Below, one piece after another: positions 25,496 through 60,312 of a stretch of DNA of 64,000 nucleotides (its first letter is position 1; each line of letters opens with the position of its first letter). The position numbers and the translations under genes were made by a program. Under the pieces are notes generated by a model. That model saw only the letters and a list, made by a program, of their open reading frames with translations, was not told where the DNA came from and made no database searches. The stretch spans positions 310,001-374,000 of the forward strand of contig NZ_JAQZSM010000001.1 in the NCBI RefSeq assembly GCF_028745735.1, read 5' to 3'. This stretch comes from Roseinatronobacter alkalisoli (GTDB lineage: Bacteria; Pseudomonadota; Alphaproteobacteria; Rhodobacterales; Rhodobacteraceae).

Positions 25496-26439
25496 ACGCG
25501 GGAAAGGTAATCACAGGTTCCGCCCCCTGGCGCGGCACGGCCTGGGCCATGGGCAAGCTGGGCCTGTCGGGGCGCACGCTGGTGATTGCTATTCCCATGC
25601 TGTGGCTGCTGGTGTTCTTTCTGGCGCCATTTTTCGTGCTGGGGCGTATTTCGCTGGCCGAGGCCATCATTGCCCGCCCGCCCTATACGCCCTTGTTTGA
25701 ACGTGGTCCTGACGGGTCGCTGGAAATCATCGCCAGTCTGGAAAACTACCGCTTCCTGCTGACTGATGCGCTGTATCGCAATGCCTATCTGTCCTCGATC
25801 CGGATTGCTGCGGTCTCGACGATTTTTGCGCTGCTGATCGGTTATCCGATGGCCTATTTCATTGCCCGTGCGCCGGAACCGCGCCGGTCCTTGCTGTTGC
25901 TGCTGGTGATCCTGCCCTTCTGGACAAGCTTTTTGTTGCGGGTTTATGCATGGATGGGCTTCCTGCGCAGCAATGGTGTGATCAACAACATGCTGATGGG
26001 CATGGGGGTGATCGACCAGCCATTGGTGATGATGCAGACCGATTTCGCGGTCTATATCGGCATCGTCTATACCTATCTGCCCTTCATGATCCTGCCACTT
26101 TATGCGAACCTGACCAAACTGGATGGCGCGCTACTGGAAGCGGCGAGTGACCTTGGCGCTTCGCCCATGGTGACGTTTTTCACCGTTACCCTGCCGCTGT
26201 CGCTGCCCGGTATTGTGGCCGGGTCCATGCTGGTCTTCATTCCCGCGATCGGGGAGTATGTGATCCCCGCGCTTCTGGGCGGGCCTGATACGCTGATGAT
26301 TGGGCGCGTGCTTTGGGATGAATTCTTCGGCAGTCGTGACTGGCCGGTGGCATCTGCGGTGGCGATTGTCATGCTGGTGCTGGTGGTTGCGCCGATCATG
26401 TGGCTACAATCGGTGCAGAACCGACGGGGGACAGAATGA
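25492..26439 (+). CDS. potH: Polyamine ABC transporter permease (PotH type)
   Basis: This 315-residue inner-membrane permease has about six helices and the coupling loop EAASDLGASPMVTFFTVTLP (about residues 216-235). The extended periplasmic loop after the first helix (RPPYTPLFERGPDGSLEIIA) is usual for PotB/PotH. Its start overlaps potG and its stop overlaps potI, both as ATGA, so the subunits are made in coupled amounts. Confidence 0.92.
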   Translation: MNAGKVITGSAPWRGTAWAMGKLGLSGRTLVIAIPMLWLLVFFLAPFFVLGRISLAEAIIARPPYTPLFERGPDGSLEIIASLENYRFLLTDALYRNAYLSSIRIAAVSTIFALLIGYPMAYFIARAPEPRRSLLLLLVILPFWTSFLLRVYAWMGFLRSNGVINNMLMGMGVIDQPLVMMQTDFAVYIGIVYTYLPFMILPLYANLTKLDGALLEAASDLGASPMVTFFTVTLPLSLPGIVAGSMLVFIPAIGEYVIPALLGGPDTLMIGRVLWDEFFGSRDWPVASAVAIVMLVLVVAPIMWLQSVQNRRGTE

Positions 26440-27239
26440 TGCGTGGATGGTTCCTGCCTGTCGCGGTTCTGCTGGGGTTCATCTTTCTGTATGCGCCAAT
26501 CATTTCGCTGGTGGTGTTTTCATTCAATGATAGTCGCCTTGTGACTGTGTGGGGCGGGTTTTCGACCCGGTGGTATGGCGCGTTGATGAATGACCGCCAG
26601 ATCATCGGCGCGGCATGGGTCAGCCTGAAGGTGGCATTTTTCAGCGCCACACTGGCTACAATCATCGGCACGCTGGGCGCGTTTGTCCTGACGCGCTTCA
26701 GCCGCTTTACCGGGCGTCTGCTGCTGACAGGCATGATTACCGCACCGCTGGTCATGCCCGAAGTGATCACCGGCCTGTCGCTGTTGTTGTTGTTCATTTC
26801 CATGGAACTTTCCCTTGGCTGGCCCGCAGGGCGGGGCATGACAACCGTGATCATTGCGCATACGACATTCTGCGCCGCGTTTGTCGCGGTGATTGCCCAG
26901 TCGCGGCTGCGCAGCATGGACGAGTCGCTGGAAGAAGCTGCGCGCGATCTGGGTGCGGGGCCGGTGCGGGTGTTCTTTGACGTGACCTTGCCGGTGATTA
27001 CGCCCGCGCTGGTGTCGGGCTGGCTGCTGGCCTTCACGCTGTCGCTGGATGATTTGGTCATCGCCAGTTTTGTGACGGGGCCGGGGGCATCAACCTTGCC
27101 GATGGTCATCTTCTCCAAGGTGCGGCTGGGGGTTAGCCCGGATGTGAATGCGCTGGCGACCATCATCATCGGCTTTGTCTTTGTCGCGGTTCTGGCTGCG
27201 GGCTGGCTGATGCGCAAGCAGATGTCGAAAGGGCTGTAA
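26436..27239 (+). CDS. potI: Polyamine ABC transporter permease (PotI type)
   Basis: This 267-residue inner-membrane permease completes the potFGHI importer. The first helix is followed by SFNDSRLVTVWGGFSTRWY, typical of PotC/PotI, and the coupling loop reads EEAARDLGAGPVRVFFDVTLP. The ATG at 26436 gives an ATGA overlap with potH; an in-frame ATG at 26400 lies inside potH. No clear terminator follows. The repeated element at 27306 begins 66 bases after its stop. Confidence 0.92.
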   Translation: MMRGWFLPVAVLLGFIFLYAPIISLVVFSFNDSRLVTVWGGFSTRWYGALMNDRQIIGAAWVSLKVAFFSATLATIIGTLGAFVLTRFSRFTGRLLLTGMITAPLVMPEVITGLSLLLLFISMELSLGWPAGRGMTTVIIAHTTFCAAFVAVIAQSRLRSMDESLEEAARDLGAGPVRVFFDVTLPVITPALVSGWLLAFTLSLDDLVIASFVTGPGASTLPMVIFSKVRLGVSPDVNALATIIIGFVFVAVLAAGWLMRKQMSKGL

Positions 27240-27305
27240 GGCCCCGCGCTGCAGCCTTGTGGTATCAGGCGGAGCCGCAAGGTTGTTCGCCGCGCGGGCA
27301 TGTAG

Positions 27306-27540
27306 CAGAGGTTGGCGCATCCAAAAGCGCAGAACAGAGGGCGCAAGCCCGCCGCGCCATCGGCGGGCCGTCCAACGGCCTGCCGGTTACGCCCACGACA
27401 CGCCAAGCCTTGAGTGCCGGAGTATGCCGCCTGCATAAAGTGAGCTTCTGCAACGTGGGACCGGCAGTCCCCGGCCCGCCGATAGCGCGGGCTTTGTGCG
27501 CACGCCAACGCCTGCTTCAGATCAGAACTAGCCAGACAGG
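27306..27540 (+). repeat. Dispersed structured intergenic element, copy 1
   Basis: This non-coding stretch closely resembles 59637-59868 in the same orientation, with the best match over 27355-27499. Arm CGGCGGGCCG (27361-27370) is complementary to CGGCCCGCCG (27472-27481), and inside it CTGCCGGT (27380-27387) pairs with ACCGGCAG (27460-27467). The left arm could instead pair with GCCCGCCG at 27347-27354. In copy 2 the outer arms differ at one position on each side and still pair. It occupies most of the 395-base gap (27240-27634) between convergent potI and the transpeptidase gene. In the rest of that gap I see only a weak 57-codon frame from 27550. Confidence 0.75.
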
Positions 27541-27634: not shown

Positions 27635-28216
27635 TCACCGGTTCCAGAATCGGAGTCGGGCCGGTGTTATGCCGCCTCCCGGTTTGGTGCTGGCGGTCAG
27701 CATGGGCGCAGGGCCGGGGCTGATATGGATTGGGGTGCCATTGCGGACCATGGCATAGATATCTTCCATCTCGCGGTCGCTGACAGCGATGCAGCCATCG
27801 GTCCAGTTCCCGCGTGCATTCTGGAATTGCGGTCCACGTCCGTGGATGAAGATATCACCACCCGGTCGCCAGCCATTTTCACGCGCATGTTCTTTGTCTG
27901 CTTCATTCGGATAATCAAGCCCGATGGACAGATGGAAGCGGCTGTTTGGGTTGCGCCGGTCGATGATGTAGTTGCCTTCGGGGGTACGGCGGTCGCCTTC
28001 GCGTTCCTTATGGCCATAAGGATTGCCGCCCAGATCCACCTCGAACACGCGCAGCAAGCGGTCATGATGCCATAATTCCATCCGCCGACTGGCCTTGTAG
28101 ACCATGACCTGCGTGACCTCCGGACCGTTATAGGTGCGGAATTTGCTGGGCTTTGTGGAACAGGCTGCAACAGCGACCAGCACCGTCAAAGCTGCGATCA
28201 GGCGAAAAAACTGCAT
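27635..28216 (-). CDS. L,D-transpeptidase family lipoprotein (YkuD domain)
   Basis: This 193-residue envelope protein probably cross-links peptidoglycan or attaches proteins to it by L,D-transpeptidation. The signal sequence ends in VAAC (Cys19), a lipobox, so it is likely anchored in a membrane facing the periplasm. The YkuD domain spans about residues 35-170 and contains HGRGP and the catalytic cysteine in TDGCIAVSDREM, where Thr-Asp replaces the more usual Ser-x. The ATG follows an AGAGG site. It is transcribed alone, towards potI. Confidence 0.87.
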   Translation of the reverse strand: MQFFRLIAALTVLVAVAACSTKPSKFRTYNGPEVTQVMVYKASRRMELWHHDRLLRVFEVDLGGNPYGHKEREGDRRTPEGNYIIDRRNPNSRFHLSIGLDYPNEADKEHARENGWRPGGDIFIHGRGPQFQNARGNWTDGCIAVSDREMEDIYAMVRNGTPIHISPGPAPMLTASTKPGGGITPARLRFWNR

Positions 28217-58822: not shown

Positions 58823-58877
58823 TTGCATCATGTGCCGGTAGCGGCTATCCCTTGGTACGAAATCGAAAGGGATGCTC

Positions 58878-59612
58878 ATGAATACCCCACGCAAAATCGC
58901 CGCTGGCAACTGGAAAATGAACGGGCTTCGCGCCGATTTGCAGGAAGCGCGCAATCTGGCAGCTGCATTTCCCGCCGCGTCGGTCGATATTCTGCTGTGC
59001 CCCCCGGCAACACTGGTCGGGGCCATGGCTGCGGCACTTGTGGGAAGCGCGGTGCGTGTGGGCGGGCAGGATTGCCACCAGAATGTCAATGGCGCGCATA
59101 CCGGCGACATATCTGCTGCGATGCTGGCCGATGCAGGTGCATATCATGTGATCCTTGGCCATTCCGAACGGCGCGCGGATCATGGTGAAACATCAACCCT
59201 GGTGGCGGCCAAGGCCAGTGCGGCACATGCTGCCGGGCTTACGGCAATCATCTGCGTTGGTGAAACCGAAGCGCAGCGCGATGCGGGCCAGACCCTTGAT
59301 GTGGTGCTGGAGCAGTTGAAGACATCCGTGCCGGATGGCGCAGACAAGGCAAATACCATTGTGGCCTATGAACCGGTCTGGGCCATTGGCACCGGGCGCA
59401 CCCCCACACTGGACCAGATTGCCGAAGTGCATGATGCCTTGCGCGCGCATCTGCCGGATGCTGGCATTTCGCTTCTTTATGGCGGGTCGGTCAAGCCCGC
59501 GAATGCGGCTGAAATATTTGCCATCGCCAATGTTGATGGCGCGCTGGTGGGCGGCGCATCATTGAAGGCAAGCGATTTTGGTGCGATCGTGGCGGCGCTG
59601 GACGCCGCCTGA
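58878..59612 (+). CDS. tpiA: Triosephosphate isomerase
   Basis: This glycolytic enzyme interconverts dihydroxyacetone phosphate and glyceraldehyde 3-phosphate. The 244-residue protein has Lys13 (NWKMNG), His95 (LGHSERR) and Glu165 ([11 protein letters not shown]) at the canonical positions when counted from the ATG at 58878. That start also has AAAGGG six bases upstream; the ATG at 58872 is too close. Its stop codon is part of a hairpin, and the repeated element copy 2 follows. Confidence 0.97.
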
Positions 59613-59636: not shown

Positions 59637-59868
59637 CTGAAGGTGTTTCCAAGGCGCGGAGTCAAGGCCGCAGGTGGCCCACGCCACCGGTGGGCCGTCC
59701 GGCGGCCTGCCGGTTACGCCAGCATCACGCCAAGCGTTGAATGTCGGAGTTATGCTGCCTGCATAAAGTGAACTCCTCCCACGTCGAACCGGCAGACCCC
59801 GGCCCACCGCTGGCGCGGGCTATATCCATTCATCAACACCTTCTTCAAGCCAGGTTTACCCAGCCCTG
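59637..59868 (+). repeat. Dispersed structured intergenic element, copy 2
   Basis: This is the second copy of the element at 27306-27540, in the same orientation. Outer arms CGGTGGGCCG (59688-59697) and CGGCCCACCG (59800-59809) pair perfectly, and inner arms CTGCCGGTT (59707-59715) and AACCGGCAG (59787-59795) do as well. Relative to copy 1 the left outer arm has C to T and the right outer arm has the matching G to A. An upstream partner GGCCCAC (59676-59682) can pair with GTGGGCC (59690-59696). It fills the gap between convergent tpiA and the Nudix gene. Confidence 0.75.
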
Positions 59869-59874
59869 TCGGCT

Positions 59875-60312
59875 TTATATCTGGCCAGCTGCGGCCAGTC
59901 GGGCGGTTTTTGCCACATCCAGACTCAGGCGCAGGTCGGTTTCCATGCTGTCCAGCGCCACCCAGCGTGCATCAAGGGCGTCATCGGCGGCAACCGGATC
60001 GCCCGACAGCCAGGTGCAGCGCACGGCAACCAGCACGAAATGCTGGCGCAGACTGCCGTCTTCGGACCAGTCATAGGCATCCAGCGCATTCAGGACTGAT
60101 TGCGCGCGGCCAGTGATGCCGGTTTCTTCCAGAAGCTCGCGTTCGGTTGCGGCCAACAGCGCCTCGCCGAATTCTATCTTGCCACCGGGAAAACCCCAAA
60201 GCCCCGCATCGGGCGGGTTGGCGCGCTGAATCAGCAGCACTTGCGCGTCACGAATGACGACAGCCAGCACGGCAACGATCGGACGGATGGGGGCGGGTGA
60301 ATGGGGCAGCAT
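59875..60312 (-). CDS. Nudix hydrolase (MutT/ADP-ribose pyrophosphatase-like)
   Basis: This 145-residue cytoplasmic Nudix enzyme has an intact box, GGKIEFGEALLAATERELLE followed by ETGI, preceded by LWGFPGG. The opening VAVLAVVIRDAQVLLIQRA is typical of MutT-like and ADP-ribose-type hydrolases; the substrate cannot be told by eye. The start at 60312 lies between the repeat element and the heme receptor terminator. It appears to be transcribed alone. Confidence 0.88.
   Translation of the reverse strand: MLPHSPAPIRPIVAVLAVVIRDAQVLLIQRANPPDAGLWGFPGGKIEFGEALLAATERELLEETGITGRAQSVLNALDAYDWSEDGSLRQHFVLVAVRCTWLSGDPVAADDALDARWVALDSMETDLRLSLDVAKTARLAAAGQI

Follow-up and report, generated by a model that had tools for sequence, protein, structure and literature searches.

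The window that we analyzed, a 64,000-nucleotide stretch of the Roseinatronobacter alkalisoli genome, contained two copies of a related intergenic sequence, and inspection of the sequence placed both of them at the positions listed here. Each copy was located between two genes whose 3' ends converged on it. The features of the two loci were as follows.

26400-27239, plus strand: left convergent neighbor of copy 1, ABC-transporter permease (BPD_transp_1, Pfam PF00528)
27302-27317, plus strand: left outer arm of copy 1, partly complementary to 27503-27518, lineage-specific
27327-27490, minus strand: core of copy 1, the conserved unit that carries the fold, positions 1-165 of the model (144.3 bits in cmsearch with R1)
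27327-27357, plus strand: P2 hairpin of copy 1, GCGCAG (27327-27332) with CCGCGC (27352-27357) (sequence and alignments)
27352-27370, plus strand: P3 arm of copy 1, pairs with 27472-27490 (sequence and covariation)
27380-27387, plus strand: P4 arm of copy 1, CTGCCGGT (sequence, and covariation in 33 members)
27388-27459, strand unassigned: enclosed loop of copy 1 with the best-conserved motif (alignment of 33 members)
27460-27467, plus strand: P4 partner arm of copy 1, ACCGGCAG (same basis as the P4 arm)
27472-27490, plus strand: P3 partner arm of copy 1 (sequence and covariation)
27503-27518, plus strand: right outer arm of copy 1 (sequence; arms found in many copies of the same genome)
27635-28216, minus strand: right convergent neighbor of copy 1, L,D-transpeptidase (YkuD, Pfam PF03734)
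58872-59612, plus strand: left convergent neighbor of copy 2, triosephosphate isomerase (Pfam PF00121)
59654-59818, minus strand: core of copy 2 (cmsearch with R1, 123.0 bits)
59679-59697, plus strand: P3 arm of copy 2 (sequence)
59707-59714, plus strand: P4 arm of copy 2, CTGCCGGT (sequence)
59788-59795, plus strand: P4 partner arm of copy 2, ACCGGCAG (sequence)
59800-59818, plus strand: P3 partner arm of copy 2 (sequence)
59875-60312, minus strand: right convergent neighbor of copy 2, NUDIX protein (Pfam PF00293)

The covariance model R1 was built from 32 sequences on the minus strand and had 165 positions and 29 pairs. Its plus-strand scores were much lower (39.7 bits for copy 1 and 33.1 bits for copy 2), and the strand on which it was built bears on this gap. 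Both copies were predicted to fold very stably, with energies of -106.4 kcal/mol for copy 1 and -101.1 kcal/mol for copy 2.

The sequence-only reading had described these copies as a dispersed element of about 230 bp with an outer 10-bp stem and an inner stem. Their relationship was far beyond chance, as the 13-base motif TGCATAAAGTGMA occurred 55 times in the genome and its reversed control did not occur at all. The repeat itself stood, but its proposed extent did not: the conserved core was about 163 bases, and the remainder consisted of lineage-specific outer arms. The outer stem paired as proposed, with CGGCGGGCCG (27361-27370) opposite CGGCCCGCCG (27472-27481) in copy 1 and CGGTGGGCCG (59688-59697) opposite CGGCCCACCG (59800-59809) in copy 2, and the C/T change between the copies was matched by a G/A change on the partner arm. 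Its length had been underestimated, since the true stem, P3, covered 19 positions (27352-27370 with 27472-27490). The inner stem, P4, had eight pairs and enclosed 72 bases in copy 1 and 73 bases in copy 2. The alternative upstream arm was also present. Specifically, the first six bases of the P3 arm of copy 1 (CCGCGC, 27352-27357) were able to pair with GCGCAG at 27327-27332 instead of with 27485-27490, so P2 competed with the foot of P3. A smaller hairpin, P2b (GGGC-GCAA-GCCC, 27339-27350), was nested in P2 of copy 1, and the sequence ATAAA (27435-27439, UUUAU on the minus strand) in the loop of copy 1 was invariant across 33 members.

The fold is under selection. On the minus strand, it consisted of the long stem P3, the inner stem P4 around the UUUAU loop, and then the 3' hairpin P2/P2b, with the outer strand of P2 competing with the foot of P3. 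In the alignment of 33 members, the two strongest signals among all column pairs were two P4 pairs; one was CG in 15 members, GC in 13, and TA in 5, the other was TA in 19 and CG in 14, and neither had a mismatch. Compensatory cells exceeded those in shuffles in alignment A2 (49 versus 16.1), in alignment A3, which held 32 diverse members (78 versus 28.7), and in alignment A4 (290 versus 65.4, with three opposite-strand rows among the 121 tested). The A3 members were 96.9% paired, compared to at most 53.0% in slid controls, which partly favor structure because we assigned the base pairs manually from the sequence. The tree of 96 members required 66 double swaps from one Watson-Crick pair to another. 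The consensus of 32 members was about 163 bases with CCGCGC at both ends, and the P2b helix, with its 3- to 4-base loop and its bulge, was also kept. Conservation of P2/P2b in A4 was biased because loci L307 to L386 had been fetched with a pattern in which much the greater part of P2 and both end bases of the P2b loop were fixed; the members of A2 and A3 were chosen independently of that pattern. An automatic consensus fold of 55 copies from the R. alkalisoli genome was poor (energy of -18.34, with a double change in 1 of 21 pairs) because stem indel types shifted the alignment. The context, tree, energy, and U-run counts used A4 without the three opposite-strand rows (118 rows), and the tree, energy, and frame counts were restricted to rows of 150 to 172 bases, which excluded 23 of 121 or 22 of 118 rows.

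We rejected a coding origin, since at most 46 of 98 members were open in any one frame and the member lengths were not multiples of three. The earlier proposal, that the region is noncoding and that selection maintains its RNA or DNA structure, was supported by this result, by the many copies, by covariation beyond shuffles and slid controls, and by paired changes on the tree. A 370-codon open frame (window positions 26396-27508, minus strand) crossed the element and the permease gene in the antisense direction; it looked spurious because members of the element keep no common open frame.

The element was present in many copies in its own genome and in related genomes, rather than in the two window copies alone. 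With copy 1 as the query, matches were found at a minimum of 42 places in the genome (the best 40 of 160 candidates were scored), namely copy 1, 40 others, and a 48-base opposite-strand piece of one of them. We collected the sequences of 67 distinct copies from this genome. In nine of these (such as L014, L015, and L026), the small hairpin was of a longer type, and its insert was nearly identical among them. A profile search of 464 kb of contig C1 found 14 elements, one of them weak, and the covariance model gave 21 matches, 8 of which were opposite-strand readings, leaving 13. Thirteen copies per 464 kb correspond to roughly 135 in the 4.84-Mb genome, and this extrapolation suggests the copy number of the whole genome. 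The profile search found 18 elements in 400 kb of the relative G033 and 16 in 384 kb of the relative G028.

The R1 searches of wider sets, whose match counts still include opposite-strand readings (8 of 21 in the C1 check), placed the element in a single family. R1 matched 166 of 394 family genomes (393 genera, about one genome per genus) at an E value of 0.001, in a search that used stricter filters and scored 7 candidates in each genome; the rows listed among the 166 matching genomes spanned the whole model, and a few were weak (E above 1e-5). The search across the class gave matches in 2 of 385 genomes, those of R. alkalisoli and G245, both of the same family. Within the genus, 29 of 37 genomes matched, with 0 to 78 matches per genome. 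Two larger match totals, 137 and 143, overstated the number of distinct copies and were not used as copy counts. Members from other genera had the same architecture and a constant length with different stem sequences. An exact-pattern scan matched at least 115 stretches. The 80 stretches listed were titled as Rhodobacterales (Roseovarius, Sulfitobacter, Salipiger, Leisingera, Paracoccus, Shimia, Roseinatronobacter, or a family name), apart from one titled only Alphaproteobacteria; the Carideicomes entry was checked. We infer that the host family is the Rhodobacteraceae in the GTDB sense, which NCBI divides into Paracoccaceae and Roseobacteraceae. Spread by phages or viruses was rejected, as neither the phage search nor the exact-pattern search of viral contigs gave a match.

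These repeats apparently constitute a large, undescribed family of noncoding folded elements of about 163 letters in many genera. The sequence-only reading had recognized no named family, and we likewise found no description of the repeat in searches of the open-access PMC literature. The Rfam scan of the window gave no match at the gathering cutoff, and the Rfam scan of 11 member loci, followed up to E = 1, gave only a separate SorX/SorY locus. The SorX small-RNA gene (L116 2839-2913, minus strand) was about 1.2 kb from an element. The only Rhodobacterales RNA noted in the part of PMC2864571 that we consulted was the SAM/SAH riboswitch upstream of metK.

As determined with codon-based gene calls, elements were concentrated at gene 3' ends. 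Within the genus, 36 of 46 element gaps were convergent, 10 were tandem, and none were divergent, compared to 125 convergent gaps among 743 background gaps. Two of 48 elements, which scored under 60 bits, had been left out, and the 46 include sites common to relatives and are thus nonindependent. In other genera, 58 of 118 elements were in convergent gaps, 43 were in tandem gaps, 6 were in divergent gaps, and 11 were at contig edges. Elements in tandem gaps showed no orientation preference (22 sense and 21 antisense). Clusters occurred, and 11 of 12 neighboring element pairs had the same orientation. Six annotated plasmid regions included four convergent and two tandem gaps, no annotated feature lay beneath the plasmid matches listed, and in one plasmid the element occupied nearly all of the gap between repB and its neighbor. 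No recurring gene family was found beside the elements in the loci read.

A comparison of G028 and G033 showed that the elements turn over in place. The stretches read contained seven shared occupied sites, with flanks that were mostly 93 to 98% identical, and the cores had been inverted or replaced at four, perhaps five, of them. Specifically, two cores were inverted (81 and 85% identity), two were replaced without a change of orientation (86 and 89%, with flanks of 93 to 97%), one was changed in its first block (87%, with flanks of 89 to 93%), and two were unchanged (98%). The site of copy 1 held an oppositely oriented element in both relatives, and some orthologous sites were empty in a relative. 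In the case of G033:C1:2711061, direct repeats of about 80 bases flanked an insert just past a gene end, and the repeated stretch was single in G028; at L005, 64-base direct repeats flanked an element just past a gene end. Long flanking direct repeats were clear in only these 2 of 136 copies. Short flanking repeats with a score of at least 14 were found in 7 of 146 cases (4.8%) versus 0.9% of mismatched flank pairs, a weak excess. At the same repB site of Pseudosulfitobacter plasmids, one strain had a full element (L432 2486-2646) and another had a 70-base, interior-deleted form (L433 1322-1391). Loci L109, L121, and L122 carried short forms that lacked the inner loop, so that the two P3 arms met directly.

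The evidence on the functional strand was mixed. In P3 and P4 of the 33 members, plus-strand mismatches were A-C in 44 cases and G-T in 1, and A-C mismatches on the plus strand read as G-U on the minus strand. Changes on the tree, as read on the minus strand, went to G-U 49 times and to A-C 19 times (p 0.0004). On the other side, P2b pair 69:80 was G-T on the plus strand in 12 copies from the R. alkalisoli genome, and the P2b loop looked better on the plus strand, where it read GNA or GNNA. Such loops are of an unusually stable type in DNA hairpins. Folding energy was uninformative as a strand test; it favored the minus strand in 52 of 96 members after duplicates were removed, and the count for copies from the R. 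alkalisoli genome was 38 of 56. We lean toward the minus strand as the functional strand, without certainty.

The element resembled several known repeat families and matched none of them fully. Like REP, BIME, and REPIN sequences, as these are described in the parts of PMC3733652, PMC3116915, and PMC1525189 consulted, it is a dispersed, palindromic, noncoding repeat that is present in many copies between convergent or same-direction genes, shows compensatory changes in its hairpins, and forms tandem clusters. According to the same excerpts, REPs are 20 to 40 bp long and have GTAG or CGTC at one end, whereas the element has a core of about 163 bp, a branched conserved fold, and CCGCGC ends. REPs and REPINs come with RAYT transposases, and a RAYT is absent from the R. 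alkalisoli genome and from G028. Among the 37 genus genomes, RAYT (Y1_Tnp, PF01797) was above the cutoff only in G005 and G020, both of which had few copies, and G033 had a partial match below the cutoff; a RAYT origin was rejected because the R. alkalisoli genome has no Y1_Tnp. No dedicated transposase was found for the CGTC-tagged REPs described in the consulted part of PMC3733652 either, but they are short and different in sequence, and the element has no CGTC tag. ERIC and RU-1, RU-2, and RU-3 of enterobacteria, as presented in the excerpt of PMC2759123, are similar in being intergenic long hairpins of 103 to 168 bp that encode no protein and have no known mover. They differ in sequence, in host group, and in having TA duplications at insertion sites, whereas the element had only the two long direct repeats (64 and about 80 bp). 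It is like MITEs in being small and having no gene, and its outer arms in the R. alkalisoli lineage, which were present in many copies and decayed in others, may correspond to inverted-repeat ends. Unlike in MITEs, the conserved part is the inner fold rather than the ends. No parent transposon was found among the element neighbors in the loci read, which had no gene family in common. Of the 37 genus genomes, 8 had an RVT_1 reverse transcriptase, G033 and G004 among them; it was absent from G000 (R. alkalisoli), G028, G034, G016, G035, and G032, which have 41 to 78 matches.

The sequence-only reading had left a structured small RNA, a 3'-end stabilizer, and a palindromic mobile repeat as options, and the position at gene 3' ends and the turnover at sites favored the latter two. 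We consider it somewhat more probable than not that the element is a nonautonomous, dispersed, noncoding mobile repeat that is selected for its fold and resembles REP and ERIC elements, with a core of about 163 bp. The multicopy state, the kept fold, the position at gene 3' ends, the gain and loss of sites, and the turnover of cores were observed, and we infer that mobility proceeds through a folded strand. When copies spread, a single strand, most likely the window minus strand as RNA or single-stranded DNA, would be recognized by trans-acting machinery, which would account for selection on the fold. Resident copies may be overwritten by other copies via the shared arms, and in either orientation, because the arms are inverted repeats. 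Insertions elsewhere would be weeded out because they break genes or promoters, and copies would pile up at gene tails in the manner of REP elements. The rarity of clear direct repeats, the mark of insertion, counts against a mobile repeat, and our limited partner search (Y1 transposase, reverse transcriptase, and neighboring gene families) found no partner. The constant length and the conserved loop go beyond the needs of a selfish, decaying repeat and would be equally compatible with a host function. We give a small chance to the more specific proposal that these bacterial mobile repeats form a class of their own, in which an elaborately folded single strand (SINE-like RNA or single-stranded DNA) is recognized in trans, long target duplications arise at convergent gene tails, and copies are swapped or flipped in place.

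An appreciable but still minor probability belongs to a bidirectional 3'-end structure that serves the host as an mRNA-end shield, a separator of convergent transcription, or a nucleoid- or gyrase-type protein site, as proposed for REP/BIME. Orientation would be irrelevant to such a structure because its build is palindromic, and the tolerated flips at the same site, the convergent placement with no divergent gap among 46, the very stable predicted fold, and the nearly filled repB gap all fit it. Its distribution does not: 228 of 394 family genomes had no match under the stricter filters with 7 candidates each, a single genus ranged from 0 to 78 matches, and orthologous sites can be empty. Judged by its sequence, the element is also not an intrinsic terminator, a candidate that was rejected because U-runs were rare. 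Reading the minus strand, TTTT followed within 12 bases of the end in 1 of 95 members, and the plus-strand count was 3 of 95; one terminator-like match was found at copy 1, where 0.5 was expected by chance, and none at copy 2. A putative trans-acting small RNA in many copies would explain the G-U tolerance of the minus strand and the conserved unpaired UUUAU motif, but we regard it as improbable given a copy number of 0 to over 60, random neighbors, the lack of an Rfam match, and the lack of a promoter-like site at either window copy in a search with the sigma-70 consensus. It is just as improbable that the paired changes are unselected products of palindrome arm correction at the DNA level or of gene conversion between copies. 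Gene conversion between copies clearly occurs, and short forms from deletion between arms exist. Nonetheless, fold, length, and the unpaired motif persist across genera despite different stem sequences, the P2b helix, loop, and bulge are kept too, and arm correction is strand-neutral, yet the plus-strand mismatches were 44 A-C to 1 G-T.

If the mobile-repeat interpretation is right, an abundant bacterial family carries a large, unannotated population of folded repeats that is in no RNA library and that the R1 model makes easy to find. The element would then be a test case for how structured repeats spread when no transposase is known for them, for the reasons that such repeats gather between convergent genes, and for whether selection can target a folded strand instead of the ends.

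Minor observations concerned the surroundings of individual elements. IS110-family transposases were near two of them (L434 2353-3297 and L436 3889-4207); the consulted part of PMC1525189 reports that IS elements target REP palindromes. In L427 and L436, the element was among plasmid toxin-antitoxin genes (PrlF/YhaV and MazE/Doc-type).
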